Assembly: GCF_001553605.1 (NCBI RefSeq)
Contig: NZ_CP014229.1
Location: 3,190,501-3,254,500 of the forward strand
DNA: 64,000 bases
DNA from: Desulfovibrio fairfieldensis
Lineage (GTDB): Bacteria > Desulfobacterota > Desulfovibrionia > Desulfovibrionales > Desulfovibrionaceae
Direction: 5' to 3'
Shown here: piece by piece, positions 17,902 through 43,416 of the stretch
Layout of the letters: each line of letters starts with the position of its first letter
Numbering within the stretch: the stretch's first letter is position 1
The notes under the pieces: generated by a model
What the model saw: the letters and a program-made list of their open reading frames with translations, nothing else
Told to the model about the DNA's origin: nothing
The model's database searches: none
Program-made: the position numbers and the translations under genes

Positions 17902-18075
17902 GGCTGTCAGAGATGATGCCCGCGCTGCCCGGCGGACGCGCGGATGCCGCACGCAACGTTGAACGCCCGGCGTTGCAGCGTTGCTCCGGTTTAAGCCCGT
18001 AACGGCTCGCCGGACGTCACGCGGAGACGGAACCGCGCGGCGTTCATGCAAAGTTATATGACAGGCGGAAACACT

Positions 18076-30299: not shown

Positions 30300-31934
30300 C
30301 TACGGCGTGATGCCCAGCTTGCGCAGCCTGTGTTGCAGGGTGGAGCGGGGCACGCCCAGCAGGGCGGCGGCACCGCGCGGTCCGGACAAACGCCCCCCGG
30401 TCAGGCGCAAGGCCTCCAGAATATGGGCGCGCTCGTTTTCTTCCAGAGTGGGCAGGGCCGGACCCGAACATGACCCGGCCCCCGCATGCAACGGGCGGCC
30501 TTCCACCGCCGAGACGGCTTCCGGCGAGGCCGGGGCAGGCGCCTCCGTCTCCGCCGACGGCTCCCACTCATGCAGGGCATCGCGCACAAAGCTCTCGGTC
30601 ACCGCCCCGTCCAGGGAGTGCAGCAAAAGGCGGCTGATCACATTGCGCAATTCGCGGATATTGCCCGGCCAGTCATGATCGCAGAGATCGCTCAGCACCC
30701 CCCTGGACAGGCGCGGCGGCCGCAGATCCCATTGCCGGGAAAACTGGCTGATGAAGTATTCAACCAGAATGGGAATGTCGTTCTTTCGTTGCCGCAACGG
30801 CGGCAGACGCAGGATGACCGAGGCCAGGCGGTAAAAGAGATCACGCCGCAAGCGGCCTTCAACCAGGGCCTTTTCCAGGTCTATGTTGGTGGCGGACAGC
30901 ACGCGGATATCCACGCCGATGGAGCGCGCCTCGCCCACCCGCTCAAAGGAGTTCTCCTCCATGACCTGCAGGAGCTTGCTCTGCATATCCGGCGAAAGCT
31001 CGCCGATTTCATCCAGAAACAAGGTTCCGCTCTGGGCCATTTCAATCCGGCCGATGCGCTTGGCGTAGGCCCCGGTGAACGCGCCCTTGGCATAGCCGAA
31101 CATCTCGCTCTCAAACAAGGTCGGGGCCAGGGACGGGCAGTTCACCTTGACGAAATTGGCCGCCCGCCTGGGGCTGCTCCGGTGCAGCCAGCGGGCCAGC
31201 ATGCTCTTGCCCGTGCCGGTCTCGCCGATGATCAGCACCGGAATATGCAGCTTGGCGACCTTGCGCGCCACGGACATGACCCGGGCCATGTCCTGGGTTT
31301 CCAGCAGGCGGTCCACCAGCCGAGTGGCGGTGCCGTCCGCATCGTCCTCACCCGGCGAATTCAGGGCAGCCTGCTGCGCCGCCTTGGCCCTGGCCCGGCG
31401 CTCTTCGGTGAGCACCACAAACAAAAAAATCGTCAATACCGGACACAGTTCCAACAAAAAATTCAGAATCTCCACCACATTGTCCGGCTGACGCACAAAG
31501 GAAACGTGCAGGGTGCCGACGACTTCGCGGTTCAGGATCAGAGGCAGGGCGATGGTGGCGTTGAGCCCGGCTGAGGCCAGAGACGAGGCCCCGCCGCCCC
31601 AGCCCAGCGAAGTCAGATCGTTGATGACTACGGGCTTGCGGGTCTGGATGGCCTGCCAGGCCACGGTATTCTGGGCGATGCGCGTGTTGGAGAACATTTC
31701 CACCACGGTACCGTCCGCCGAGGTAAAGGAATTCAGAAATTCCCGCTCCGCGTCATAAAGATTGATGCTGAAACGATCATAAACGAAAAGCGTACGAAAC
31801 TCTTTGGAAAGAAAGGAAAAAAGCCCGCTACGGTCCATATTGCCGGGAACCAGCCTGGACAGGCGGTGAATAATCTGGGCCGCAGCCAGCAATGGGCTCC
31901 CCAAGCAGACGCTGCCATCGTTTCGTTCCTGCAT
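30300..31934 (-). CDS. Sigma-54-dependent activator with GAF sensor domain
   Basis: 544 aa from ATG 31934, preceded by GGAGGTGGGG; an in-frame ATG at 31955 is less likely. Order: GAF domain (about 20-170), a hydrophobic helix (about ILNFLLELCPVLTIFLFVVL), AAA+ sigma-54 interaction domain (about 205-440) with Walker A GETGTGKS, the sigma-54 contact loop GAFTGA (intact), Walker B GTLFLDEIGEL and DWPGNIRELRN, and a C-terminal Fis-type helix-turn-helix (GPRGAAALLGVPRSTLQHRL). It is divergent from the TauE/SLC13 operon. Since that operon and the next each have a -24/-12 promoter, this is the likely activator of both. The hydrophobic segment between GAF and AAA+ may tie it to the membrane. The ligand is unknown. 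Confidence 0.92.
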   Translation of the reverse strand: MQERNDGSVCLGSPLLAAAQIIHRLSRLVPGNMDRSGLFSFLSKEFRTLFVYDRFSINLYDAEREFLNSFTSADGTVVEMFSNTRIAQNTVAWQAIQTRKPVVINDLTSLGWGGGASSLASAGLNATIALPLILNREVVGTLHVSFVRQPDNVVEILNFLLELCPVLTIFLFVVLTEERRARAKAAQQAALNSPGEDDADGTATRLVDRLLETQDMARVMSVARKVAKLHIPVLIIGETGTGKSMLARWLHRSSPRRAANFVKVNCPSLAPTLFESEMFGYAKGAFTGAYAKRIGRIEMAQSGTLFLDEIGELSPDMQSKLLQVMEENSFERVGEARSIGVDIRVLSATNIDLEKALVEGRLRRDLFYRLASVILRLPPLRQRKNDIPILVEYFISQFSRQWDLRPPRLSRGVLSDLCDHDWPGNIRELRNVISRLLLHSLDGAVTESFVRDALHEWEPSAETEAPAPASPEAVSAVEGRPLHAGAGSCSGPALPTLEENERAHILEALRLTGGRLSGPRGAAALLGVPRSTLQHRLRKLGITP

Positions 31935-31959
31935 GGCCCCACCTCCACCGCCCATATGA

Positions 31960-31981
31960 GGGCATTTTTTGCTGAAATGCC
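31960..31981 (+). promoter_or_regulatory. Candidate activator-binding site upstream of the TauE operon promoter
   Basis: GGGCATTTT-N3-CTGAA (31960-31976). The same motif occurs at 34477-34493 before the second sigma-54 promoter. Here it is also a near-palindrome, GGCATTT-N7-AAATGCC (31961-31981). Its last A lies exactly 104 bases before the T of the -24 box, as at the second promoter. It also lies just upstream of the activator gene itself, so autoregulation is possible. Confidence 0.6.
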
Positions 31982-32079
31982 GACAAAAGCGCTCAACTAC
32001 ACCGCGTTCTCATTGAACACGCAAACATTGAGAAGAAAAAACAGCAGGAAGTTCAAGCAACTACCGGATACCTCCAGTT

Positions 32080-32095
32080 TGGCACAGGGTTTGCT
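32080..32095 (+). promoter_or_regulatory. Sigma-54 (-24/-12) promoter of the TauE/SLC13 operon
   Basis: TGGCACAGGGTTTGCT fits the consensus TGGCACG-N4-TTGCW at every fixed position except the G after TGGCAC. Transcription would start near 32106, leaving a leader of about 175 bases before the TauE ATG. Confidence 0.82.
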
Positions 32096-32196
32096 CATAT
32101 TCAAGCATATTTGAACTTTATCATTCTTAAAAATGGGAGTCTATATGATTAATAAATAATATATAATTTTATATACAATTATATAAATATATATTG

Positions 32197-32216
32197 CTAT
32201 GGCATCTATGCCATAG
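32197..32216. promoter_or_regulatory. Perfect palindrome in the leader of the TauE operon
   Basis: CTATGGCAT-CT-ATGCCATAG, 9-bp arms, in an AT-rich stretch downstream of the sigma-54 start site. Its position suits a repressor operator or an RNA hairpin; nothing more can be said. Confidence 0.35.
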
Positions 32217-32280
32217 TTCTGGACTCTTGTTGTGCATTTTTATGAGTCATAACTTTTAACCTTCTCCGCGTGGTATAGTT

Positions 32281-33039
32281 ATGATCTCTTCCGACATTGT
32301 CATCATTGCTCTGGCCGGCTTTTTTTCAGGCATCATCAAAACCGGTGTGGGTGTGGGTTCCGGTATTTTCCTGCTGCCCACGCTGGCGCTGGGCTTCCCC
32401 GCCAAACTGGCTCTGGGCTTGGGCGCGCCGCTCCTGCTGGCTTCGGACGCCATCGGGCTACGCTATTACTGGAAGCAATGGCTGCCGCGAACCGAACTGG
32501 CACGGCTCTTTCTGGCCGCTCTGCCGGGCCTGATTCTGGGGGCTGTGCTGTTGCCCTTGATTCCGGGCGGGATCTTTCGCATCGGCGTGGGCGTCTTCGG
32601 CGTGTTTTACGCCCTCAGTCTGCTCTGGCCCCAATTTCCCGCCGCCGTTTTGCTGCGGCGGCTTTTCGGGGGACTCAACGCGCGTTACGCGGAGGAGGGC
32701 GCCTACATCTATGGTTTTCTGGGCGGCGTTTCCACCGTACTGGCCCATGCCGGCGGCCTGGTCTGGTCCCTGTACCTGATCACGGCCGCGCGTGACAGAC
32801 GCATCTTTGTGGGTACCACAATTATTCTCTTCTTTGTCACCAACATTTATAAGACAGTTTCCTACGTATATATCGGCATCATCGGCCCGGACGACCTGCT
32901 GAAAGTCATCCCGGCCATTCCTATGATTTTTCTGGGGTCCTATCTCGGCAATGTGATCAACAAACGATGTAATTATATTTTATTCAGAAAAATAGTTCTC
33001 TGTTTTATCCTCTTCATCTCCGTATCGCTGTGCATCTGA
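32281..33039 (+). CDS. TauE/SafE-family membrane permease (sulfite/organosulfonate type)
   Basis: 252 aa with about eight hydrophobic segments in two halves, each beginning with a Gly-rich helix (LAGFFSGIIKTGVGVGSGIF and YGFLGGVSTVLAHAGGLVW), the TauE/SafE pattern. Members export sulfite or sulfoacetate or move other organic anions. It is the first gene after the sigma-54 promoter at 32080 and is followed by a SLC13-type carrier. With SuyAB-like genes in the partner operon, sulfite or sulfonate handling is a reasonable but unproven guess. The ribosome binding site is weak. Confidence 0.85.
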   Translation: MISSDIVIIALAGFFSGIIKTGVGVGSGIFLLPTLALGFPAKLALGLGAPLLLASDAIGLRYYWKQWLPRTELARLFLAALPGLILGAVLLPLIPGGIFRIGVGVFGVFYALSLLWPQFPAAVLLRRLFGGLNARYAEEGAYIYGFLGGVSTVLAHAGGLVWSLYLITAARDRRIFVGTTIILFFVTNIYKTVSYVYIGIIGPDDLLKVIPAIPMIFLGSYLGNVINKRCNYILFRKIVLCFILFISVSLCI

Positions 33040-33120
33040 TTTTTGCACTCATGCGACGTATTTCATTTCCCTACTATTCTTGGCTGCTCGGGACACAACC
33101 TTCAATAACGGGGAAGTCTC

Positions 33121-34467
33121 ATGGAAAAATGTTTTCTCTTTTTACTTGTTCTTTGTGTTTCTCTGCTTCCGGAAACGGCCTGCGCCGCCAGCGCGCCACC
33201 ACCGCAAACCATCAACATGCCCCACGTCTATATTGTTTTCGGCGTGCTTCTCGTGGCTGCGGTGCTCTTTTTCACAGAATGGATTCCCTTGGCCGTGACC
33301 TCCATTCTGGTGCCCTGCGCGCTCTCCACCTTAGGGGTCATTACCGTCAAGGAGGCCTGGATCAGCTTCGGCGACACCAGCATTCTGACCATCGTGGGCC
33401 TGTTCATGCTGGGTGAGGCCACCTTCGCCACGGGCTTCGCCCAGCGCGTCGCGACCGTAATCATCAGCAAGGCCGGAGCCAGCGAAACCCGCCTGCTGGT
33501 CTTCGCCATTCTCCTCATCGCCTTCATGTCGGCCTTCCTGAACAACGCCGGCGTCACGGCCATCACCCTGCCCATGCTCATTTCCATTGCCCGCAAGGCA
33601 CACCTTTCACCTTCGCGCATATTGTTGCCCACAGCCTACGCGGCTAGCTTCGGCGGCTGTATCTCGCTTGTGGGCCAGGCACCGTCCATGGTGGCCAACG
33701 GCATTCTGGCCAAAATGGCGCCGGAATACGGCCAGTTCGCCTTTTTTGAATTCGCTTGGTACGGCCTGCCCCTGACCCTGATCGGCGCCGTCCTTTTTGC
33801 GCTGTTCCCCCGCTTTTTGGTACCTCCGGCCCGCGAGGACGTAGCCGAACTCAAGGAAATCGAAATTCCCGACGGCGGCGTGCACATGTGGATCGCAGGC
33901 GGGATCTATTTTCTCGTCATCATCTGTATGGCCACGGGCCTGGTGCCGCTGACCTCCGCCGCCATGCTGGGAGCCATGCTCTGCATCCTGACCCGCTGCA
34001 TGACCCTCAAACAGGCCCAGGCCGGCATCGACTGGACCACCGTCTGGCTGTTCGCGGGCATGCTGTCCATGAGCTTCGCCATGAACAAGTCCGGCGCGGC
34101 CACGCTGATAGCCCACTTCGTCGTCAGCTATATCTCCGACCCCCTGTTTCTGTTCTGCACCCTTATGGCGGTTACCGGCATACTGACCAATATCATGTCC
34201 AACACGGCCACCACGGCCATCATGGTGCCGCTGGTCATTCCCATCGCCCTGGAGATGAACCTCAGTCCCCTGCCCTTTGTCATGGGCATCGCCATGAACG
34301 CCGCCGCCTGCTTCATGACGCCCATCGCCACGCCGTCCAACACCCTGGTGCTGCGGCCCGGCAACTACACTTTCTTTGATTATGTGCGTTACGGCTTTTT
34401 CTGGCAGGTCATAGCCTATGCCCTTTCCCTGCTGATCATCCCGCGTGTCTGGCCCTTCATGCCCTGA
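33121..34467 (+). CDS. SLC13/DASS-type anion transporter (dicarboxylate, sulfate or sulfonate)
   Basis: 448 aa, ion-transporter superfamily. An N-terminal signal-like segment is followed by about ten membrane helices. The two re-entrant substrate motifs are visible: NNAGVTAITLPM in the first half and SNTATTAIMVPLV in the second, equivalent to the SNT signatures of Na+/dicarboxylate symporters. GGGGAAG precedes the ATG. It is co-transcribed with the TauE-type gene and is presumably the importer of the substrate degraded by the downstream operon. The substrate cannot be chosen from sequence among C4-dicarboxylates, tartrate and sulfonates. Confidence 0.88.
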   Translation: MEKCFLFLLVLCVSLLPETACAASAPPPQTINMPHVYIVFGVLLVAAVLFFTEWIPLAVTSILVPCALSTLGVITVKEAWISFGDTSILTIVGLFMLGEATFATGFAQRVATVIISKAGASETRLLVFAILLIAFMSAFLNNAGVTAITLPMLISIARKAHLSPSRILLPTAYAASFGGCISLVGQAPSMVANGILAKMAPEYGQFAFFEFAWYGLPLTLIGAVLFALFPRFLVPPAREDVAELKEIEIPDGGVHMWIAGGIYFLVIICMATGLVPLTSAAMLGAMLCILTRCMTLKQAQAGIDWTTVWLFAGMLSMSFAMNKSGAATLIAHFVVSYISDPLFLFCTLMAVTGILTNIMSNTATTAIMVPLVIPIALEMNLSPLPFVMGIAMNAAACFMTPIATPSNTLVLRPGNYTFFDYVRYGFFWQVIAYALSLLIIPRVWPFMP

Positions 34468-34476
34468 AGGATTCAC

Positions 34477-34493
34477 GGGCATTTTCGCCTGAA
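34477..34493 (+). promoter_or_regulatory. Candidate activator-binding site upstream of the second sigma-54 promoter
   Basis: GGGCATTTT-N3-CTGAA, identical at all 14 fixed positions to the site at 31960-31976 and at the same 104-base distance from its -24 box. It lies just after the SLC13 gene stop. Confidence 0.6.
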
Positions 34494-34596
34494 TACGGGC
34501 ACAACTCCGCCCCTATTTGGGCAGGAGAGAAGAACAAAGATGGTGACAAATTCATAAAATGAATAAAAATCAATATATTACAGTAAAAAATATGAC

Positions 34597-34612
34597 TGGC
34601 ACCATCTTTGCT
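34597..34612 (+). promoter_or_regulatory. Sigma-54 (-24/-12) promoter of the redox/lyase operon
   Basis: TGGCACCATCTTTGCT fits the consensus except for the base after TGGCAC. Start of transcription is expected near 34623, 37 bases before the flavoprotein ATG, which has AGAGGTAG upstream. An 11-bp inverted repeat (CAAAGATGGTG at 34535-34545 with CACCATCTTTG at 34600-34610) overlaps the promoter. Confidence 0.85.
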
Positions 34613-34659
34613 TTTTTTAGGCAACGCAGCTGCCGCAATGTTTTACAGAGGTAGAGCTT

Positions 34660-36387
34660 ATGAATGCGGACTACAAAGTGGATTTACTGGTGCTGGGCAT
34701 GGGCGCCGCGGCGCAACTGGCGGCCATCTATGCCCATGATGCCGACCCGGACCTGAACATCCTCATTGCCACCAAGGCGCTGAAGGGCAAAGGCGGATGC
34801 AGCCGCATGGTTCAAGGCGGCTTCAACGTGGTGCTCGACCCCGGCGATTCCCATGAAAAGCATCTCATGGATACGCTCAAGGGCGGGCAGTACATCAACG
34901 ATCAGGACCTGGCCCTGGCTCTGGTGGAGCAGGCCACGCCCACGGTCAAGGAGCTGGAAACCGTCTGCGGCTGTTTTTTCGACCGCCGTCCCGACGGGCA
35001 CATCCATCAGAAGGCCTTCGCCGGCCAGTGCTTTGACCGCACCGTGCACAAGGGCGACCTGACGGGCATTGAGATCATCAGCCGCACCACAGAGCAGGTC
35101 TTCAAGCGCCGGATCCCGGTACTCGAGGAAACCCGCGCCGTGGAGCTGCTGCTGGATGCCGAGGGAACCACGGTCACCGGCGCGCTGCTTTACAATATGC
35201 GCACCGGCGCGTTCATCACCGTGGAGGCCGCGGCCACCCTGGTGGCCACCGGCGGCGGCCCCACCCAGTACCGCTTCCATGCCCCCGGACCGGAAAAGTC
35301 CGCCGACGGCATCGCCATGCTGTACCGGGCGGGCGCGCTGATGCGCGACATGGAAATGATCCAGTTCCACCCCACGGGCCTGATCATTCCCGGCAGCGTG
35401 GTGGCCGGCGCACTGCTGGAAGAAGGCCTGCGCGGCGCGGGCGCCCATCTCTACAACGGCGCGGGCGAGCGCTACATGCTCAAGTACGCGCCGGACGTGG
35501 CCGAACGCGCCACCCGCGATGTGGTCAGCCGTTCCGCCTATCTGGAAATGATGGCCGGGCGCGCCTGTCCCGAGGGCGGCGTGCGTATCGACGCGGCCCA
35601 CCTCGGCGCGGATTTTGTGCTCAAAAGCTTTCCCGGCATGGCTGAACGTTGCGCCCAGTTCAAATACGATCTGGCCCACGGCATGGTGCCCGTGTCGCCC
35701 TCGGCCCACTTCTTCATGGGCGGGGCCGCCATCGGCGTGGACTGCCGGGCCTCTCTGGACAAACTCTTCGTCGCCGGCGAGGACGCGGGCGGCGTGCACG
35801 GGGCCAACCGTCTGGGCGGCAACGGCATCGGTGAATCCTGCGTCTACGGCCGCCTGGCCGGAAAGTCCATCGCAGCCTACCTGTCCAAGCCGGAAAACCG
35901 CCGCATCAAGGACAGCGCGCCCGGCATGGCCAAAGAGGCCATGGCCCGCATCAGCGCGCCGCTCACCCGCAAGGGGGGCACCTCGCCTTTCGCCAATCGC
36001 CGCGAAATCCAGGAAACCAACTGGGTCAAGGTGGGCGTGGTGCGCAAGGAATCCGCCCTGGAAGAGGCCCTCGACGACTTCGCCGGCCTGCGCCGGGATG
36101 TGGAACGGGCCGGCGTGAGCGGAGGTCGAGCCTACAACATGCTCTTCAACACCCATCTGGACACCCTGAACATGATCGACGTTTCCGTCATGGCCGCCGT
36201 TTCCGCGCTGCAGCGCCAGGAAACCAGGGGAGCGCACACGCGCGAGGACTTCCCCGAACAACGCGACGACTACGGTCTGTTCAACACCTTCATGCGGCGC
36301 GGCGACGACGGTCTGCCGGTCTTTGAAAAGAAGGATGTGGTCTTCAAGCACAAGTCGCTTGAGGCCTGCCAGAAGCACAAAAAGTAA
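34660..36387 (+). CDS. Fumarate reductase/succinate dehydrogenase-type flavoprotein, non-covalent FAD form
   Basis: 575 aa catalytic flavoprotein of the FrdA/SdhA/NadB superfamily. Features: N-terminal dinucleotide fold VLGMGAAAQLAA, substrate motif MIQFHPTGL (H237), catalytic-Arg loop RATRDVVSR, SAHFFMGG and the FAD-binding GGVHGANRLGGNGIGES. The stretch that normally supplies the His for covalent FAD (SHTxxAxGG) reads GCSRMVQGG with Cys47 at that place, so FAD should be non-covalent, as in L-aspartate oxidase and thiol:fumarate reductase. A C-terminal helical domain is present. It heads an operon with a membrane anchor, an iron-sulfur/Rieske fusion and cytochrome b-c. Direction and even substrate (fumarate, succinate or a related dicarboxylate) are open. 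Confidence 0.85.
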   Translation: MNADYKVDLLVLGMGAAAQLAAIYAHDADPDLNILIATKALKGKGGCSRMVQGGFNVVLDPGDSHEKHLMDTLKGGQYINDQDLALALVEQATPTVKELETVCGCFFDRRPDGHIHQKAFAGQCFDRTVHKGDLTGIEIISRTTEQVFKRRIPVLEETRAVELLLDAEGTTVTGALLYNMRTGAFITVEAAATLVATGGGPTQYRFHAPGPEKSADGIAMLYRAGALMRDMEMIQFHPTGLIIPGSVVAGALLEEGLRGAGAHLYNGAGERYMLKYAPDVAERATRDVVSRSAYLEMMAGRACPEGGVRIDAAHLGADFVLKSFPGMAERCAQFKYDLAHGMVPVSPSAHFFMGGAAIGVDCRASLDKLFVAGEDAGGVHGANRLGGNGIGESCVYGRLAGKSIAAYLSKPENRRIKDSAPGMAKEAMARISAPLTRKGGTSPFANRREIQETNWVKVGVVRKESALEEALDDFAGLRRDVERAGVSGGRAYNMLFNTHLDTLNMIDVSVMAAVSALQRQETRGAHTREDFPEQRDDYGLFNTFMRRGDDGLPVFEKKDVVFKHKSLEACQKHKK

Positions 36388-36417
36388 GTTTTGAAACGTA
36401 CTCTAATGGGGGAAATA

Positions 36418-36756
36418 ATGAATACGCCTGAACTTGATTACAGAAAGCCCATGCAGTGGGGGGAAATTGATCCGTACCGGCGCGGGCGGGCGCATGTGGG
36501 CATGTGGGCCTGGCTGCTGCAACGCGTCAGCGCCGTTTTTGTCGTCGTGCTGCTGATCCTGCATCTCTGCTTCACCTACAAGCCCTATATTCAGTTTCTT
36601 CTGCTGCTGGCCGTAACCCTGCACGCCTCTCTGGGCATCCGCGTCATCCTTCTGGACTTCAACCTCGCCAAAATAACCTCGGCGCGCCGTCTGGTGCCCT
36701 GGACGCTGGGCCTGGGTCTCATCGCCGCGCTGATTGCCTGGTTTGCCATCTACTAA
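36418..36756 (+). CDS. Succinate dehydrogenase/fumarate reductase-type membrane anchor
   Basis: 112 aa from ATG 36418 (GGGGGAAATA upstream; an in-frame TTG/ATG lies 15-30 bases earlier). Three transmembrane helices. The N-terminal GMWAWLLQRVSAVFVVVLL is the typical WxxQRxSG start of SdhC/SdhD, followed by HLCFTY in helix I and LHASLGIRVILLDF in helix II, whose histidines could bind heme b and whose RxxxxD is typical of SdhD. Only one such subunit is encoded, so the anchor is smaller than in the usual two-subunit form. It lies between the flavoprotein and the fused iron-sulfur/Rieske gene, 11 bases before the latter. Confidence 0.85.
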   Translation: MNTPELDYRKPMQWGEIDPYRRGRAHVGMWAWLLQRVSAVFVVVLLILHLCFTYKPYIQFLLLLAVTLHASLGIRVILLDFNLAKITSARRLVPWTLGLGLIAALIAWFAIY

Positions 36757-36767
36757 AGGAGGACGCC

Positions 36768-38078
36768 ATGCAATCTTCAAGCAATACGCGCACGGTACGG
36801 ATATTCCGCTACGACCCCGAAAAGGGCGGAGACGGGAGCTTTCAGAGCTACACGCTGGAAATCCCAAATCCCGACACCACCACTATTCTGGACGTGCTGC
36901 TGCGCATCCAGAAGGAACAGGACCCAAGCATTGCCTTCCGCTTCGCCTGCCGCGTGAACATGTGCGGCTCCTGCGGCATGGTCATCAACGGTCGCGAGGG
37001 CCTGGCCTGCAAAACCAACGTCTGCGACCTGCCCTCTGGCCAGGACATCACCCTGCGGCCGCTGAACCACTTCCCTATCGTCAAGGATCTGGTGGTGGAC
37101 ATGGGCCCGTTTTTCGCCAAGTACGAAGAAGCCCTGCCCTTCTTCGAACCGCTTGAAAAACGCGCCGAGCCCTACGTCATCAAGCCGGACGACAAAAACC
37201 GGGTGGACATCGGCATGGCCACGGACTGCATCGCCTGCGGCTGCTGCGTGTCGAGCTGCACCATGGTGGACAACCATGAAGGCTATTGCGGCCCGGCGGC
37301 CCTCAACCGCGCTTTCACCCTGCTGGCCGACGAACGCGACGCGCTCTTTGAGCCGCGCCTGACCAGAGCACTGGACAGCTGCTACAACTGCCGCACCGAA
37401 TTCAATTGCACGGAAGTCTGTCCCAAGTCCATCAGCGGCACACGGGCCATCAAGTACATCCAGCGCCTGGCCCTGAAAAACCTCAAGGCCGTCAAGCCCC
37501 TTCCACCGCATCCCGCCGAGACGGCCAAGAGCACCCCGGCCCAAGCGGCCCAAGTGATCCAGGCGGCTCAAACCGATCAGGCGGCCGCCGTCCCGCCGCG
37601 CGCCTGCTACGCCTCCGACGCATCCCGCCGTTCCTTTCTCAAAAGCGCCACCGGTCTGGTGGGCGCGGGAATCGTGATTTCCCTGGGGGCCGTTCTGGGC
37701 GTCAGCGCCGTGGGTCCCACCCTGGCGGATCAACCCCGCCAGTGGGTGGATGCCGGTCCGGAAAAGGACTTTCCGGTGGGCGATATCACCAGTGTCACCC
37801 TACATTACAAGCGCAGCCAGGCCTTCCACGCCGAAAACAAGGAAGTGCCGGTGCTGGTGCGCCGCGATTCCGAACAGGACTTCATCTGCTTCAGCAGCAG
37901 TTGCCCGCATCTGGGCTGCGCCGTGAGCTGGGACGAGCTTTCCCGGCGCTTCAAGTGCGCCTGCCACGGCGGAGCCTTTGACAGGGACGGCAAGGTCATT
38001 GCCGGGCCGCCGCCGTCGCCGCTGGTCCGTCTGCCCTGGAAACTGGACAACGGCATTCTTAAGGTGGAGGTGGTCTAA
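36768..38078 (+). CDS. Fusion: fumarate-reductase-type iron-sulfur subunit + Tat-dependent Rieske protein
   Basis: 436 aa from ATG 36768 with AAAGGAGG upstream. Residues 1-245 are a normal FrdB/SdhB subunit: plant-type [2Fe-2S] cysteines C61, C66, C69, C81; ferredoxin-type CIACGCCVSSC (154-164); and C205, C208, C214, C218 in CYNCRTEFNCTEVCPK. A Pro/Ala linker (about 246-282) leads to a twin-arginine motif SRRSFLK (286-292), one hydrophobic helix (295-319) and a Rieske domain with both cluster boxes intact, CPHLGC (379-384) and CACHGG (397-402). The N-terminal half must lie in the cytoplasm and the Rieske half outside, so one chain would span from a fumarate-reductase head to a cytochrome b. 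The frame is continuous, with no slippery site, and the next gene overlaps by one base. Confidence 0.92.
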   Translation: MQSSSNTRTVRIFRYDPEKGGDGSFQSYTLEIPNPDTTTILDVLLRIQKEQDPSIAFRFACRVNMCGSCGMVINGREGLACKTNVCDLPSGQDITLRPLNHFPIVKDLVVDMGPFFAKYEEALPFFEPLEKRAEPYVIKPDDKNRVDIGMATDCIACGCCVSSCTMVDNHEGYCGPAALNRAFTLLADERDALFEPRLTRALDSCYNCRTEFNCTEVCPKSISGTRAIKYIQRLALKNLKAVKPLPPHPAETAKSTPAQAAQVIQAAQTDQAAAVPPRACYASDASRRSFLKSATGLVGAGIVISLGAVLGVSAVGPTLADQPRQWVDAGPEKDFPVGDITSVTLHYKRSQAFHAENKEVPVLVRRDSEQDFICFSSSCPHLGCAVSWDELSRRFKCACHGGAFDRDGKVIAGPPPSPLVRLPWKLDNGILKVEVV

Positions 38079-39523
38079 TGAGCTTCCGAAGTGACATCGG
38101 CTGGGACAAGTATCTCAAGCCCTTCCTGTACAAAAGGCTGCCGGACCGCACCGGCTGGAGCGCCGTGCTGGGCACCCTCTGCGCCCTGACCTTCATTGTT
38201 CTGGTGATGACCGGCATGATTCTGGCCTTCTACTATGTGCCGTCGCCGGACAAGGCCTGGGATTCCGTGCGGTACATCAGCAATGACGTGCCCCTGGGCA
38301 AAATCCTGCGCGGGCTGCACCACTGGGGCGCGGGTCTGATGGTCTTTCTGGTCTTCTGCCATCTCATGGTGACCTATGTGCACGGCTCCTACGCCAAGCC
38401 CCGGCAGCTGACCTGGATCACCGGCGTCTGCCTCTTTCTGGTCACCCTGGGCCTGGGCTTCACCGGCTACCTGCTGCCCTGGGACATGAAGGCCTACTGG
38501 GCCACGGTGGTGGGGGCCAACATTCCCAACCAGTATCCCGGCGTGGGCAATTACATCACCCGCTTCATCCTGGGCGGCAACGACATCTCGGGCTTCACGC
38601 TCTCGCGCTTCTATTCCGTGCACACCCTGATTCTGCCTGCCTGTCTTCTGCTGATCATGGCCATGCACATCTATCTGATCCGCATCCACAATATCTCCGA
38701 CCCGCGCGAGCGGCTGGCCGGCGAGGCTCTGCCGCCCGCCGACGGCAAGCCCTACCGCTTCTATCCTGAGCACATCAACCGCACCACCCTGGCTTTCGGA
38801 CTCATTTTCGCGGGCCTGGTGCTGCTGGCCCACTATGCGCCGCCGCATATGGAAGCCAGGGCGGGCACCTTTATTCCCGATTATCTGCCCCGGCCCGAAT
38901 GGTACTATATGTGGCTCTTCCAGCTGCTGACTTACTTCACCGGCTCCTGGGAGATGATCGGCAGTCTCTTCCTCTTCGGCGGCGGGCTCTTCCTGCTCTT
39001 CGGCGTGCCCTTCTTCAGCGAAAGCAGGCTCAAGGGCGTGGGCAACAGGCCCGTGTCCCTGGCCGTGGCCGCCACCTTCATGGTCTGCATCGTTTATCTC
39101 ACGCTCATGGCCTACTCCGAGGCCGCACCCTACAACAAGTTCCTCATGCTGCCGGACAGGCCCATGAGCGAACAGGCCAAGCGCGGCATGTTTCTCTATG
39201 CCGAACGGGAATGCTCTTACTGCCACAACATCATGGGCAAGGGCGGCCATCGCACCGGGCCGGACATGAGCAATATGATCAAAAAGGGCAGAAGCGCCCG
39301 GTACCTGGCGGATTACGTCAAGAATCCGCTCAAAGTATACTCGTCGTCCACCATGCCGGCCTATGACCTCACGCCCGAACAACTCAAGGATCTGGCGGCT
39401 TTTTTGCTGGCCTTGGATTTCAGGGGCGCGAAGGCTGTTGAAAAGCCTGTGTCCGAAATTCTCGGAACAACCAAGGCCGGACAGCAAACAGGGCAAACGG
39501 ACGCCGTCGCGTCCGGCTCATAA
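38078..39523 (+). CDS. Cytochrome b (b6-like) fused to a C-terminal cytochrome c domain
   Basis: 481 aa. The N-terminal half has heme b ligands H81/H95 and H182/H197; the 15-residue spacing of the second pair is the cytochrome b6 pattern. GYLLPWD and the Qo-site PEWY motif (273-276) mark a quinol-oxidising cytochrome b. After the last helices (about 325-345) comes a c-type domain with one CxxCH (CSYCH, 379-383) and a distal Met in STMPAYD (about 426). The ATG overlaps the stop of the Rieske fusion (TAATG). Together they would form the core of a menaquinol:cytochrome c reductase with its own tethered cytochrome c. No separate cytochrome c gene is present. Confidence 0.92.
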   Translation: MSFRSDIGWDKYLKPFLYKRLPDRTGWSAVLGTLCALTFIVLVMTGMILAFYYVPSPDKAWDSVRYISNDVPLGKILRGLHHWGAGLMVFLVFCHLMVTYVHGSYAKPRQLTWITGVCLFLVTLGLGFTGYLLPWDMKAYWATVVGANIPNQYPGVGNYITRFILGGNDISGFTLSRFYSVHTLILPACLLLIMAMHIYLIRIHNISDPRERLAGEALPPADGKPYRFYPEHINRTTLAFGLIFAGLVLLAHYAPPHMEARAGTFIPDYLPRPEWYYMWLFQLLTYFTGSWEMIGSLFLFGGGLFLLFGVPFFSESRLKGVGNRPVSLAVAATFMVCIVYLTLMAYSEAAPYNKFLMLPDRPMSEQAKRGMFLYAERECSYCHNIMGKGGHRTGPDMSNMIKKGRSARYLADYVKNPLKVYSSSTMPAYDLTPEQLKDLAAFLLALDFRGAKAVEKPVSEILGTTKAGQQTGQTDAVASGS

Positions 39524-39535
39524 GGAGGACTTTGT

Positions 39536-40417
39536 ATGGACAGCTTTGATTACACCATCGTGGAAGAAGCGGCCAAGCAGTGCTACATCAAGGCGCTCTG
39601 CGATCTGCCGCCCGATGTGCGCGCAGCCCTGAAAAAAGCCTATGAGAGGGAAACCCAGCCCGCTGCCCGCAGCGTTTTCGAGGCCATGTTCAAGGCCATC
39701 GAGATCGCGGACAGCAAAAAGACCCTGCTCTGCCAGGATACTGGCCTGCCCATCTACAAAGTGCGCATCGGCTCGGCCCACGCCTGGAACGGCGCGAAAA
39801 TCAAGGCCGCCCTCTACGAAGGGGCCAAACGCGCCACCCAGGAGTTTCCTTTCCGCAGCAGTTCCACCCACACCATCACCCGGGTCAACCCCCAGACTTC
39901 GGTGGGACCGGGCCTGCCCGTGACCTACTTCGACTTTGACGGGGAAAGCGCGGACCTGGACATTCTGATGATTCCCAAGGGTTCAGGTTCGGAGAACATG
40001 AGCAAGATGAAGATGTTCTACCCGCAGCACGGCATCAAGGCCGTGAAGAAGTTCATTCTGGACACGGTCATTGAAAGCGGCGCCAACCCCTGCCCTCCGG
40101 GCATCATCGGCGTGGGCCTGGGCGGCACCGCCGACCTGGTCATGAAGCTGGCCAAGGACGCCATCGCGCGGCCCGTGGGCCAACGCAATCCCGACCCCCT
40201 GCTGGCCGAAATGGAAGAAGAGCTGGAAGAGGCCATCAACGCCACGGGGCGCGGGCCCATGGGGCTGGGCGGCGACGTGTCCTGTCTCGCCGTGCATATT
40301 GAGAGCGCCTATACCCACATCACCCAGAATCCCGTGGCCGTGAACACGCAATGCTGGCCCGCGCGCCGAGCTCGCGCCGTGATCACGCCCGCCGGCCAGG
40401 TGTCCTACGGTTATTAA
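39536..40417 (+). CDS. Class I fumarase / L-tartrate dehydratase, alpha subunit
   Basis: 293 aa iron-sulfur hydro-lyase subunit. The three [4Fe-4S] ligands are visible: C66 (LCQDTG), C186 (NPCPPGIIGVGLGG) and C273 (NTQCWPARRA). GGAGG lies six bases before the ATG. Paired with the beta subunit encoded next, it would interconvert fumarate and malate, or dehydrate L-tartrate to oxaloacetate as TtdAB does. The two activities cannot be told apart here. The neighbouring fumarate-reductase-like genes favour fumarase. Confidence 0.92.
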   Translation: MDSFDYTIVEEAAKQCYIKALCDLPPDVRAALKKAYERETQPAARSVFEAMFKAIEIADSKKTLLCQDTGLPIYKVRIGSAHAWNGAKIKAALYEGAKRATQEFPFRSSSTHTITRVNPQTSVGPGLPVTYFDFDGESADLDILMIPKGSGSENMSKMKMFYPQHGIKAVKKFILDTVIESGANPCPPGIIGVGLGGTADLVMKLAKDAIARPVGQRNPDPLLAEMEEELEEAINATGRGPMGLGGDVSCLAVHIESAYTHITQNPVAVNTQCWPARRARAVITPAGQVSYGY

Positions 40418-40427
40418 GGAGGCAATC

Positions 40428-41021
40428 ATGAGCAAGATTCATCATCTCACGTCGCCTTTTTCCGAGGAAGTTATCCGGAGCCTGCATGCCGGCGACATCA
40501 TCTACTTTGACGGTCCGCTGTTCGGCATCCGCGATCTGACCCAGATTCACATTTTCGACCACAACAATCCCCCGCCGGTGAGTTTGGAGGGCATGCCCTG
40601 CATCCACACCGCGCCAAGCCTGCGCAAGGTCGGCGACAAATGGGAGAAAATCTGCGTGGGCACCACCACCAGCACCCGAATGGAGCGCTTCACGCCCGGA
40701 CTCATCGGCCAGTACGGGGTACGGGCCGTCATCGGCAAGGGCGGACTGTACCAGGACAGCCTGGAGGCCATGAAAAAATACGGGGCCGTGTACCTGGCCA
40801 TTGTAGGCGGCGCGGCGGCTCTGGAAACCGAACAGATCGAGGAAGTGGAACAGGTCTATTTCGAAGAGCTGCATCCCGAAGCCCTTTACCGCTTCCGAGT
40901 GAAAAACTTCGGACCGCTGACCGTGGCCATGGACAGCCACGGCGTGCATCTCTACGAGCGGGTCAGCGAAAAAATCAGGGAAAAACTGCCCGACATCTAC
41001 GCCAGACTCGGCGTGTCGTAG
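40428..41021 (+). CDS. Class I fumarase / L-tartrate dehydratase, beta subunit
   Basis: 197 aa, the C-terminal (beta-alpha swivelling) domain of class I fumarases as a separate subunit. Recognisable blocks are LHAGDIIYFDGPLFGIRDL, the TSTRMERFTPGLI loop and VIGKGGLYQD, which bind the substrate carboxylates. AAGGAGG precedes the ATG, 10 bases after the alpha subunit. A gap of 89 bases without visible signal follows before the UxaA-family pair. Confidence 0.92.
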   Translation: MSKIHHLTSPFSEEVIRSLHAGDIIYFDGPLFGIRDLTQIHIFDHNNPPPVSLEGMPCIHTAPSLRKVGDKWEKICVGTTTSTRMERFTPGLIGQYGVRAVIGKGGLYQDSLEAMKKYGAVYLAIVGGAAALETEQIEEVEQVYFEELHPEALYRFRVKNFGPLTVAMDSHGVHLYERVSEKIREKLPDIYARLGVS

Positions 41022-41110
41022 GCAGAAATCTTGCCTTCCGGCCAGGGCGGGTATCTCCCGAACAGCGGCATGCGTAACGGCCGGAGCATGCGCAACCCTT
41101 TGGAGGACAT

Positions 41111-41395
41111 ATGGGCGTTGATTTTGTTGTTCACGAAAAAGGCGACGGCGTGGGCGTTGTGGTCGTGGAAGGATTGAAAAAGGGACAGGAATGCACCGGC
41201 TGGATCATGCAGGAGGATGAGCTGATCACCTTTCAGGTTCTGGACGACATCCCGATTGGTCACAAAGTGGCCCTGCACAATTTCGCGGTCAATGACACGG
41301 TCGTCAAATACGGTACGGACATCGGCAAGGTGGTCAAGCCCATCAAGCAGGGCGAACACCTTCATGTGCACAACGTCAAAACCAAGAGGTGGTAG
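41111..41395 (+). CDS. UxaA-family lyase small subunit (SuyA-like, SAF domain)
   Basis: 94 aa SAF-domain protein (VVHEKGDGVGVVVVEGLKKG at the start, IPIGHKVAL in the middle, HLHVHNVKTKRW at the end). This is the N-terminal domain of altronate dehydratase, here as a separate gene, as in (2R)-sulfolactate sulfo-lyase SuyA. TTTGGAGG precedes the ATG. It is encoded three bases before the large subunit, with which it would form an alpha/beta enzyme splitting off water or sulfite from a hydroxy acid. From memory the whole chain looks closer to SuyA than to UxaA, but I could not align it. Confidence 0.75.
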   Translation: MGVDFVVHEKGDGVGVVVVEGLKKGQECTGWIMQEDELITFQVLDDIPIGHKVALHNFAVNDTVVKYGTDIGKVVKPIKQGEHLHVHNVKTKRW

Positions 41396-41398
41396 AAC

Positions 41399-42559
41399 AT
41401 GAATAAGAAATTCTGGGGTTACAGAAGGGAAAACGGCCGCGTGGGTATCCGCAACCACGTTGTTCTGCTGCCTCTGGACGATCTGTCCAATGCGGCCTGC
41501 CAGGCGGTGGCCAACAACATCAAGGGCACCCTGGCCCTGCCGCACCATTACGGCCGCCTGCAGTTCGGCGAGGATCTGGACCTGCATTTCAGAACCCTGA
41601 TCGGCGCGGGCTGCAATCCCAACGTGGCCGCAGTGGTGGTCATCGGCATCGAGCCGGTCTGGACGCAGCAGATCGTGGACGGCATCGCCAAAACCGGCAA
41701 ACCCGTAGCCGGTTTCTCCATTGAGAAGAACGGCGACCTGAACACCATCGCCGCTGCCTCCCGCAAGGCCAAGGAATTCCTTCAGCAGGTCACCGATTAC
41801 CAGCGTGTGGAATGCGATATCAAAGAGCTCTGGGTCTCCTGCAAATGCGGCGAATCGGACACCACCTCGGGCATTGCCTCCAATCCCACGGTGGGCAACG
41901 CCTTTGACAAGCTCTGGGAAGCCGGGGCCACCACCCTGTTCGGCGAAACCACGGAAATCACGGGCGGCGAACATCTGGTGGCCGCGCGCTGCGTCAATGA
42001 GGACGTGAAAAAAAAGTTCATGTACTTTTTCGACCGCTACGCCAAGGTGGTGGACGACCACAAAACCAATGACCTCTGCGACTCCCAGCCCACCAAGGGC
42101 AATATCGAAGGCGGTCTGACCACCATTGAGGAAAAGGCTCTGGGCAACATCCAGAAAATAGGCCGCAAGGCTCCTGTGATGGGCTGCCTGGACAAGGCCG
42201 AAAGCCCCAGCGGGCCTGGCCTGTGGTTCATGGACTCCTCTTCCGCCGCAGCGGAAATGGTCACCCTGGCGGCGGCCTCGGGTTTTGTGGTGCACTTCTT
42301 CCCCACGGGCCAGGGCAACGTGATCGGCAATCCCATTCTGCCGGTCATCAAACTCTCGGCCAATCCGCGTACCGTGCGCACCATGAGCGAGCACATCGAC
42401 GTGGACGTGACCGGTCTGCTCCAGCGTGAATACGATCTGAACGCGGCGGGCGACAAGCTCCTGGAAATGATGGTCCGCACCTGCAACGGCCGCAATACCA
42501 GCGCCGAGGCCCTGGGCCATCGCGAGTTCGTCATGACCCGCCTGTACGAAAGCGCCTGA
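41399..42559 (+). CDS. UxaA-family lyase large subunit (SuyB-like)
   Basis: 386 aa, the length of SuyB (sulfolactate sulfo-lyase beta) and of the catalytic part of altronate dehydratase. Features: [17 protein letters not shown] at the N-terminus (family signature GRVGxRNxV), cysteines in [11 protein letters not shown] and MGCLDKAE, which may hold an iron centre, [20 protein letters not shown] and a C-terminal [14 protein letters not shown]. If it is SuyAB, the reaction would be sulfolactate to pyruvate and sulfite; sulfite is a respiratory acceptor in this lineage and a TauE-type permease is co-regulated. Other sugar-acid or hydroxy-dicarboxylate dehydratase activities remain possible. Confidence 0.78.
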
Positions 42560-42735
42560 TGCTGTTCCACAGCCGCCGCGCCGCGCCCTCCCATGTCCCG
42601 AGCGCAAACCACGCGCGGACGCGGCGGCCAAGGACATCCCCGTTTCCGTTCCTGTGCGCGGACGCGGGGATGCCCCGGCGGGCATGTTTCTGCTGCCCGC
42701 CGGGGACCGAGCAACCATCCGTCACAGGAACAGCC

Positions 42736-43416
42736 ATGAGTACCCTACGATACAGAATCATGCCGCACAGTGAAGAAGCGCCTTTCTCTCTGCCGGAACT
42801 CTTTGCGGACCTGGCCGTGGCCGACATCTGCGACGCCCTGGGCCGCAACGCCGCCCTGCCCTCGGCCATCAAGCCTCTGGGCGTCGCTCGCCTGCTGGGC
42901 ACGGCCTACACGGTCAATCTGCCCGCCGGTGAAAACCTGTTGCTCTACTACGCTGTGGATAATGCCCGGCCCGGCGATGTGCTGGCCGTGGCCTGCGACG
43001 GATACGAAGACCGCGCCGTGTGCGGCGAGATCATGGCCGCTCTGGCCCGCAAGCGGGGCTTGGCCGGTTTTGTGGTGGACGGGGCGGTGCGGGACGCGGA
43101 CGCCCTGCGGGCCATGGACTTTCCGGTCTACGCCCGCGCGGTTTCACCCAACGGTCCGTACAAGGACGGCTGCGGCGAAATCAACGCGCCCATTGCCATG
43201 GGCAATGCGGTGATCAGGCCGGGCGACATACTGGTGGCCGACGGCGACGGCATTGTGGCCGTCAGCCGGGACGAAGCCGAATCCGCGGCCATACAGGCCC
43301 GCGCCATCCGGGATACCGGCTTGCGTAAGCTCAAATCCATTGAAAAAACCGGTAAGCTGGATTTCACCTGGCTGTACGAAAAACTGGCGGCCGGTTCCTG
43401 CGCTATCTTTGACTGA
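42736..43416 (+). CDS. RraA-family protein (HMG/oxaloacetate aldolase-like)
   Basis: 226 aa from ATG 42736 with AGGAA upstream; the open frame extends further 5' but with improbable sequence. The RraA / demethylmenaquinone-methyltransferase-like fold is recognisable by ADICDALGRN, the central GFVVDGAVRDADAL (family GxxxDGAxRD with the metal-binding D) and PGDILVADGDGIVAV. Many members are metal-dependent 4-hydroxy-4-methyl-2-oxoglutarate aldolases that also decarboxylate oxaloacetate to pyruvate, which would suit a pathway from C4 acids. It is the last gene of the operon, before a strong terminator. There are 176 bases between it and the lyase gene in which I see nothing. Confidence 0.83.
   Translation: MSTLRYRIMPHSEEAPFSLPELFADLAVADICDALGRNAALPSAIKPLGVARLLGTAYTVNLPAGENLLLYYAVDNARPGDVLAVACDGYEDRAVCGEIMAALARKRGLAGFVVDGAVRDADALRAMDFPVYARAVSPNGPYKDGCGEINAPIAMGNAVIRPGDILVADGDGIVAVSRDEAESAAIQARAIRDTGLRKLKSIEKTGKLDFTWLYEKLAAGSCAIFD

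Follow-up and report, generated by a model that had tools for sequence, protein, structure and literature searches.

We analysed a window of 64,000 nucleotides from Desulfovibrio fairfieldensis, whose genome is a single contig of 3.70 Mb; all positions given below are those of this whole stretch. Its subject is an operon built around a gene that joins an iron-sulfur subunit of the succinate dehydrogenase/fumarate reductase type (SdhB/FrdB) to a Rieske protein, written SdhB::Rieske in the following. The original prediction had confined the unit to 34660-39523, which is too short: it reaches from about 30300 to 42559 and, together with one gene behind it, comprises the following features.

30300..31955, minus strand: activator with GAF, sigma-54 interaction and Fis-type helix-turn-helix (HTH) domains, probable regulator of the unit (Pfam PF00158, 9.4e-62; HTH_8)
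32080..32094, plus strand: sigma-54 -24/-12 site 5' of the TauE and DASS genes (exact TGGCAC-N5-TTGC match)
32281..33039, plus strand: TauE/SafE-family exporter for sulfite or a sulfonate (Pfam PF01925, 1.5e-28)
33121..34467, plus strand: DASS/CitMHS-type anion transporter, likely for substrate uptake (Pfam PF03600, 2.9e-70)
34597..34611, plus strand: sigma-54 -24/-12 site just 5' of the FrdA-like gene (exact match)
34660..36387, plus strand: FrdA/SdhA-like flavoprotein of a distinct clade, proposed 3-sulfopropionate dehydrogenase (Pfam FAD_binding_2, Succ_DH_flav_C)
36418..36756, plus strand: single membrane anchor of the Sdh_cyt type (Pfam PF01127, 6.7e-10)
36768..38078, plus strand: SdhB::Rieske fusion, 436 aa (Pfam, alignment)
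37626..37631, plus strand: internal twin-arginine translocation (Tat) motif, residues 287-288 of the fusion (invariant in 19 aligned rows)
37902..37973, plus strand: Rieske boxes CPHLGC...CACHGG (Cys and His invariant in 19 aligned rows)
38078..39523, plus strand: b6-like cytochrome b with a subunit-IV-like part, fused to a mono-heme cytochrome c (Pfam Cytochrome_B, Cytochrom_B_C, Cytochrom_C)
39536..40417, plus strand: class I fumarase-type alpha subunit, proposed 3-sulfoacrylate hydratase (Pfam PF05681, 3.8e-89)
40428..41021, plus strand: class I fumarase-type beta subunit (Pfam PF05683, 2.4e-32)
41111..41395, plus strand: SuyA-like small subunit of sulfolactate sulfo-lyase, 94 aa (weak N-terminal TIGR03248 match)
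41399..42559, plus strand: SuyB, predicted catalytic subunit of (R)-3-sulfolactate sulfo-lyase (sequence identity to SuyB types)
42727..43416, plus strand: RraA-like protein after the operon, link uncertain, start not fixed (Pfam PF03737, 1e-45)

The fusion is one intact gene, as had been predicted: an uninterrupted open reading frame (ORF), whose ATG is preceded by an AAGGAGG site and in which Pfam finds the domains Fer2_3 (residues 9-116), Fer4_8 (151-222) and Rieske (326-419). The cluster cysteines described for the SdhB part are present, but eleven rather than nine occupy ligand positions (61, 66, 69, 81, 154, 157, 160, 164, 208, 214 and 218), and those for the [2Fe-2S], [4Fe-4S] and [3Fe-4S] clusters are all kept. 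The third cluster motif reads CxxE in all fused sequences (E211 is invariant in a 19-row alignment), which puts a glutamate at the 'fourth-ligand' site of cluster 3, where three ordinary proteins have Cxx(I/V/L) and seven of nine aerobic sister proteins, described below, have Cxx(H/Q). Judged from these sequences, the motif hints at an altered electron exit from the SdhB part.

Behind the SdhB part, the twin arginines stand ahead of the only strongly hydrophobic segment by hydropathy (291-320), and the two Rieske boxes follow at residues 379-384 and 397-402; the original prediction had placed all of these correctly. The protein would thus have its SdhB part inside, one helix in the membrane and its Rieske domain outside. 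Such a topology had been called a puzzle, and the motif behind it is real, but there is a precedent among the Rieske proteins of Actinobacteria, in which two Sec-inserted segments precede an internal twin-arginine motif and the Tat system exports the Rieske domain (PMC5449189; here and below, publications are cited for the accessible parts of their texts). In the Rieske box CACHGGxF, the hydrogen-bond donors Ser and Tyr, which raise the potential of the cluster, are replaced by Gly and Phe. Loss of the two lowers the potentials of other Rieske proteins by about 130 and 65 mV, respectively, though the high potential of one Rieske protein does not simply obey the Ser/Tyr rule (PMC12954380). A Rieske domain lacking both donors fits a low-potential system.

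The neighbours are also those predicted: an FrdA-like gene, one small Sdh_cyt anchor and a gene for b6-like cytochrome b that carries a c domain as well. In the anchor, which has about three hydrophobic segments, R45, H58 and H78 are invariant across all 23 aligned rows (residues are counted from the TTG at 36391; the ATG at 36418 is the likelier start), and with its two invariant histidines it could hold one heme at most. Cytochrome b, unlike the anchor, retains both heme pairs, with histidines at 81/95 and 182/197 (14/15 spacing) that are invariant in 21 of 21 rows, followed by PEWY at 273. The only CxxCH of the gene is CSYCH at 379, and H383 and M426 of the c domain are invariant in all 19 rows that reach them (the row of locus L051 runs through an N stretch into the next gene, and this tail was left uncounted).

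A scan of named prokaryote genomes yielded 39 stretches that match a pattern, 20 of which encode a relative. Not one of these 20 is a complete unfused gene, so that a sequencing error, which had been named as a possible refutation, does not account for the fusion. A chance ORF was set aside as well. Both domains are essentially complete and in one frame in 18 of them; in L054 the match ends at query residue 406, near the end of the contig and followed by unrelated sequence, and in L059 the contig itself breaks off at residue 251, ahead of the Rieske domain. The carriers belong to several phyla. Among them are Desulfovibrionaceae, such as D. cuneatus DSM 11391 (L044), Solidesulfovibrio, Desulfotignum, Desulfocapsaceae, Desulfobacterales, two Nitrospirae bins, one Acidobacteria bin and one Sumerlaeota bin, and nearly all are metagenome-assembled. 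Within the family of the window, the fusion (E <= 1e-60) occurs in 12 of 288 genomes and 7 of 44 genera, being split across two contigs in one genome (G119), and FrdA-like proteins of the same clade as that of the window (E <= 1e-110) are found in exactly these 12 genomes.

The original prediction had asked whether the fused pair always lies beside FrdA-like and cytochrome b-c genes, and it does: the order FrdA, anchor, fusion, cytochrome is fixed wherever the contig reaches. FrdA and anchor are present in 19 of the 20 loci and cytochrome b-c in 18, the exceptions being contig ends. FumAB-like genes are found in 14 loci, and the other six contigs end in or just past the fusion or cytochrome gene. 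We consider it almost certain that this is a conserved hybrid operon.

Two further observations concern these loci. In L047 (1-1456), a metagenome contig, the FrdA-like gene is broken into two matching pieces with residues 317-363 missing, probably by an assembly or sequencing fault. A genome of the same genus as the window (L035; G027:C92:23000-32826) encodes a Rieske ORF of 584 aa, whose first ~470 residues have no Pfam match, and two cytochrome b genes beside a NosZ-like gene with nos propeller and cupredoxin domains. We take this set to resemble clade II nitrous oxide reductase clusters. A Rieske/cytochrome b unit of the clade II nos type was considered for the operon and rejected, the G027 example by the NosZ-like gene being a different system.

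Regarding the flavoprotein, the original prediction of a fumarate reductase is not supported. We set aside an ordinary fumarate reductase because the protein falls into a clade of its own, with changes among the active-site residues and linkage to sulfonate genes (SuyAB, TauE), and because the same genome has a second set of DASS, FumAB, FrdA and FrdB with ordinary residues (L041, G000:C1:3570000-3583000). Being paralogous, this set can usefully serve the hybrid operon as a control. The 29 clade members compared (20 fusion-operon FrdA proteins and 9 aerobic relatives) all lack the flavinylation histidine (His45 of E. coli SdhA, whose numbering is used here), replace Thr254 by Glu and Ser404 by Gly, and have an insertion behind HPTG in common, while keeping the dicarboxylate-site residues H242, R286, H354 and R399 as well as E255. 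In the window protein these changes appear as E254, G389 (corresponding to 404 of E. coli SdhA) and the missing histidine; the column of H45 shifts by one residue between alignments, giving Cys or Gly for the window, and holds His in neither. The combination E254/G404 occurs in none of four ordinary homologues compared, and E. coli SdhA, E. coli FrdA and the genome's own FrdA keep His45, Thr254 and Ser404. An identity as NadB, which has Ser, Thr and Ser in the three columns, was likewise set aside, as NadB keeps Thr254 and Ser404. The residue comparison omits L047 and L049 (fragments below 450 aa), L060, whose contig has no FrdA, and L064-L073, which are mostly repeats of the same loci, though L065 and L071/L073, also omitted, come from further genomes.

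A maximum-likelihood tree of 33 proteins supports the fusion-operon set at 100/99, and at the same values the set of fusion-operon and aerobic proteins together; the outgroup branches are long and the outgroup placement is unsure. The nearest named relative of the window protein in this tree is from an uncultured Desulfovibrio. The best-scoring NCBIfam model for the window protein is TfrA of methanogens, with a score below the cut-off of that model.

The closest homologues of the flavoprotein on plasmids have 45-51% identity. Among 460 matching plasmid records we hand-picked 11 aerobic clusters (nine of the 15 best and two from a sampled list), and four ordinary SdhA/NadB clusters from the sampled list as controls. 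The 11 clusters are from Methylobacterium (2), Paracoccus, Sulfitobacter (2), Pseudomonas, Cupriavidus, NT-25, Rhodococcus and two haloarchaea. FumAB is present in all nine bacterial clusters, and SdhB with two anchors of the SdhC/D type in all seven bacterial clusters that are annotated; the haloarchaeal clusters have SdhB, an argH-like lyase and no annotated anchor. Sulfite or sulfate exporters lie near the clade gene in 9 of the 11 clusters but in none of the four controls, and some clusters also hold sulfite-oxidising genes. UxaA pairs were found in the stretch for L106, L112 and L141, of which only that of L112 is close (68%), and in Paracoccus versutus SuyAB lies about 20 kb from the clade gene on the same plasmid. 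In L106 and L141, the Haloarcula and Natribaculum plasmids, the clade gene and SdhB stand with the UxaA pair, TauE and the argH-like lyase, which replaces FumAB. An SdhB fused to Rieske was found in none of the nine aerobic clusters aligned. The same type of dehydrogenase thus appears with plain Sdh partners in aerobes and with a Rieske/cytochrome b-c core in the anaerobic set.

The last two genes of the operon form a UxaA-family pair linked to sulfonate genes, the larger of which is SuyB-like. The SuyB of the window shares 74.5% identity with a UxaA-family protein encoded near hpsN/hpsO (sulfopropanediol dehydrogenases) in Cupriavidus pinatubonensis and 66.2% with one encoded beside a sulfate exporter in P. 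versutus. We take both to be characterised SuyB types, in part following PMC6278857; their records read 'UxaA family hydrolase'. The other 38 records sampled from the 316 with a match have identities of 25.7-39.8%, and this gap points to a sulfolactate sulfo-lyase rather than a sugar-acid dehydratase. SuyA has no Pfam match; its homologues adjoin SuyB in other loci, and the same layout, with a small UxaA gene before a large one, is seen in L062 and L063. At E <= 1e-100, SuyB is single-copy in the genome and occurs in 68 of the 288 family genomes, namely in 12/12 carriers of the fusion and 56/276 others (Fisher p 1.4e-8). SuyB and fusion are on different contigs in G158, G173, G309 and the fragmented G119, and for most family carriers the co-occurrence reflects linkage. 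FumAB, which has the Pfam domains Fumerase and Fumerase_C, is 37.6% (alpha) and 35.8% (beta) identical to the other FumAB of the genome.

SuyAB cleaves sulfolactate in Desulfovibrio sp. DF1 (PMC6278857) and is induced on sulfolactate in Bilophila wadsworthia (PMC8667426), and sulfite-reducing peatland Acidobacteria with suyAB are on record (PMC6018796). A dsrA gene above cut-off is found in 17 of 23 carrier genomes, and partial matches, probably cut by contigs, in G008 (216/402 positions) and G328 (86/402). The background in a sample of Acidobacteriota, the carrier included, is 17 of 149.

From this gene content we consider a role of the operon in sulfonate metabolism quite probable. As 3-sulfopropionate relates to succinate in the way that 3-sulfolactate relates to malate, an Sdh-like, a fumarase-like and a SuyAB step would make a complete route, and with some confidence we infer, from sequence evidence, that the operon serves the anaerobic degradation of 3-sulfopropionate via 3-sulfoacrylate and 3-sulfolactate to pyruvate and sulfite. 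On the cytoplasmic side, the FrdA-like flavoprotein and the SdhB part would oxidise 3-sulfopropionate to 3-sulfoacrylate, from which the FumAB-like hydratase would make 3-sulfolactate. SuyAB would cleave this to pyruvate and sulfite, with the sulfite either respired by way of DsrAB or exported through TauE. The chain 3-sulfopropionate, sulfoacrylate, sulfolactate was described for the aerobic Roseovarius nubinhibens in the thesis of J. Mayer, cited in PMC11489063. According to the same paper, 3-sulfopropionate is made by Enterococcus gilvus and used by B. wadsworthia; it leaves open whether sulfite reducers take the sulfoacrylate-sulfolactate route.

The electrons would leave through one hybrid membrane complex, consisting of cytoplasmic flavin adenine dinucleotide (FAD) and three Fe-S clusters, the small anchor and a core of Rieske, cytochrome b and cytochrome c, tied to the head by the fusion and placing its Rieske and c domains in the periplasm. 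A single hybrid complex had been part of the original prediction; as the fusion is accompanied from locus to locus by the same genes for FrdA, anchor and cytochrome b-c, it is the simplest reading, which we adopt for a complex inferred from its genes.

The Rieske/cytochrome b-c part might instead be a separate menaquinol:cytochrome c reductase, tied covalently to the dehydrogenase for co-expression only. With both heme pairs and PEWY its cytochrome b could run a normal Q cycle, but the FrdA clade has no unfused version in the family (the fusion is present in 12/12 genomes), and between FrdA and cytochrome there is one anchor gene, with gaps too short for a second (which was not sought elsewhere), whereas annotated aerobic bacterial clusters have two. 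We consider two separate complexes quite unlikely.

A very unlikely alternative is the reverse pathway, in which 3-sulfolactate would be dehydrated and 3-sulfoacrylate reduced to 3-sulfopropionate as an electron sink resembling fumarate respiration, with menaquinol electrons arriving via the Rieske/cytochrome b core. Covalent flavin is required for succinate oxidation, not for fumarate reduction, and the lack of the flavinylation histidine would suit this direction, as would the downhill flow of electrons from menaquinol. However, SuyAB of the same operon would use up the sulfolactate and yield sulfite, a better acceptor; the aerobic relatives stand by sulfite exporters and some by sulfite-oxidising genes, which marks their clusters as degradative; and a downhill reduction of the fumarate type should need no Rieske/b-c core.

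The substrate could also be another sulfonate or succinate analogue, such as sulfosuccinate or another X-propionate, treated by the same logic of oxidation, hydration and lyase cleavage. Some clade clusters have other lyases (the argH-like one in Haloarcula and Natribaculum, aconitase X near L142), and transporters differ among the loci (TRAP, SDF, TctA, DASS); in sulfite reducers, however, SuyAB sets sulfolactate as the last intermediate, which is the product of 3-sulfoacrylate hydration, and here too we see little probability. Least likely of all is an ordinary Sdh/Frd for C4 acids tied to a Rieske/cytochrome b unit, with a fumarase for malate and SuyAB as a bystander, for although the dicarboxylate-site catalytic His, Arg and Glu are kept, FumA scores above the fumarate hydratase cut-off and a DASS-type transporter adjoins, the genome has a regular FrdAB (His45, Thr254, Ser404) with FumAB and DASS elsewhere, the residue changes run through 29/29 clade members, and SuyB is present in 12/12 family carriers, in some on another contig.

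Several results nonetheless weigh against 3-sulfopropionate degradation by the operon. SuyA or SuyB lies within only 10 of the 20 loci (one merely a contig-cut SuyA, and sometimes upstream of FrdA), and TauE within only six of the 20 other loci. SuyB was found somewhere in 16 of the 20 named carrier genomes but not in G329 (whose locus has the contig-cut SuyA), G337, G343 and G347, and G336, G337, G343 and G344 have no convincing dsrA (a weak match or none), the completeness of these genomes being unstated. FumA passes the 'fumarate hydratase' model NF004885 with 295.9 bits against a cut-off of 276, and from its sequence FumAB may still act as an ordinary fumarase. None of the 20 named loci is a Bilophila record, and the route of the operon is probably not the Bilophila route. 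Among the aerobic relatives, Rhodococcus jostii L104 has no TauE among the nine ORFs scanned, and the member on the Sulfitobacter S190 plasmid (L142) stands by aconitase X and DUF126, with FumAB and no sulfite exporter; the substrates within the clade may therefore differ. Finally, the AlphaFold models are too weak for testing the substrate pocket (mean pLDDT, the predicted local distance difference test, 61.5 for the fusion and 67.2 for FrdA, with active-site stretches below 50).

For the proposed oxidation of 3-sulfopropionate, the energetics offer a reason for the additional core. Electrons of the succinate type are released at about +30 mV. This is above menaquinone at about -70 mV (PMC12954380), so that the oxidation costs energy when menaquinone is the acceptor. 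The two transmembrane b hemes would let the membrane potential drive the electrons uphill to menaquinone, which would be the likely reason for the extra core; we put this mechanism forward tentatively. In a further version, which we regard as somewhat unlikely, the Rieske/b core would run in reverse as an electron confurcation at menaquinone, and the complex would be the missing anaerobic 3-sulfopropionate dehydrogenase. One electron would pass from the SdhB clusters to the N-side b heme, from which the membrane potential would drive it outward to its P-side counterpart, and the second from a periplasmic cytochrome c through the low-potential Rieske cluster to menaquinone. Such a dehydrogenase might have a Cys where others have the flavinylation His, and a third Fe-S cluster ligated by Glu.

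In comparison with known systems, the hybrid resembles complex II (E. coli Sdh and Frd) in the family of its flavoprotein, the dicarboxylate-site His and Arg, an SdhB that keeps the cysteines of three cluster motifs and an Sdh_cyt anchor. It differs in the missing flavinylation His, Thr254Glu and Ser404Gly, in CxxE instead of Cxx(I/V/L), in having one anchor rather than two, in the fusion of SdhB to Rieske and in the extra cytochrome b-c. With bc1/b6f complexes, including those with a b-c fusion, it shares the Rieske boxes with their disulfide cysteines, the 14/15 histidine spacing, PEWY and a mono-heme c domain with CxxCH and Met; unlike in these, its Rieske protein bears an N-terminal cytoplasmic SdhB and has Gly and Phe for the Ser and Tyr donors.

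The original prediction knew of no described complex of this make-up. The general idea has a parallel in Rieske/b complexes with a cytoplasmic NAD(P) oxidoreductase head, proposed for anaerobic ammonium oxidation (anammox) in Kuenenia (Kustd1480-1485 and Kuste4569-4574; PMC12954380), where genes of a cytoplasmic head are likewise co-encoded with a Rieske/b core and a flavin/Fe-S head is wired to b hemes. The anammox complexes have an NAD(P) head, multiheme c and a Rieske potential above +300 mV, whereas the hybrid has an Frd-type head and one CxxCH. Neither such a head nor an SdhB::Rieske fusion appears in the accessible parts of that account. A full-text literature search covering few subscription journals returned, in titles, abstracts and the passages searched, no description of an SdhB::Rieske fusion and no assignment of the operon.

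On the side of the pathway, Desulfovibrio sp. DF1 is similar in that SuyAB frees sulfite from 3-sulfolactate in a sulfite respirer, but it makes sulfolactate from 2,3-dihydroxypropane-1-sulfonate (DHPS) by NAD-dependent dehydrogenases (PMC6278857), where we propose an Sdh-like oxidation and a hydration. The R. nubinhibens route (thesis via PMC11489063) has the same proposed intermediates; R. nubinhibens is aerobic, however, and the aerobic relatives examined here lack the Rieske fusion.

The DASS-type transporter of the window scores 170.3 bits against TIGR00785, below the cut-off of 198.6, and an RraA-like gene is present also in L032 and L034. Two other loci contain Ldh_2 dehydrogenases, one of them together with a 2-hydroxyacid dehydrogenase; these genes resemble the ComC/SlcC pair, which interconverts sulfolactate enantiomers (PMC6018796). 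The two exact TGGCAC-N5-TTGC sites, 5' of TauE and of FrdA, are the only ones in the window, and with one mismatch allowed the whole window has seven sites, no excess over chance. With a slightly looser -24/-12 pattern, 8 of 17 loci, close relatives counted, have such a site in the 600 bp before FrdA as against 4.3% of random stretches, and sigma-54 activators flank L044, L045, L046, L050 and L053 too. Elsewhere in the window, an ORF of 1616 aa (18046-22896) has a weak HATPase_c match (2e-5) as its sole match, and a type I restriction-modification R subunit (EcoR124_C, HSDR_N; 1408-4380) is followed by more ORFs of ~370-535 aa, up to 8438.

If our reading is correct, the operon encodes a respiratory complex with parts of complexes II and III on one polypeptide, for which the aerobic sister enzyme without the core would be a natural control for the purpose of that core. 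It would also provide candidate genes for 3-sulfopropionate respiration, a step between sulfoquinovose and hydrogen sulfide that was reported for a gut bacterium in 2024 (PMC11489063) and whose mechanism a review of 2026 calls unclear (PMC12890257). Cultured carriers such as Desulfovibrio cuneatus DSM 11391 make both points directly testable.

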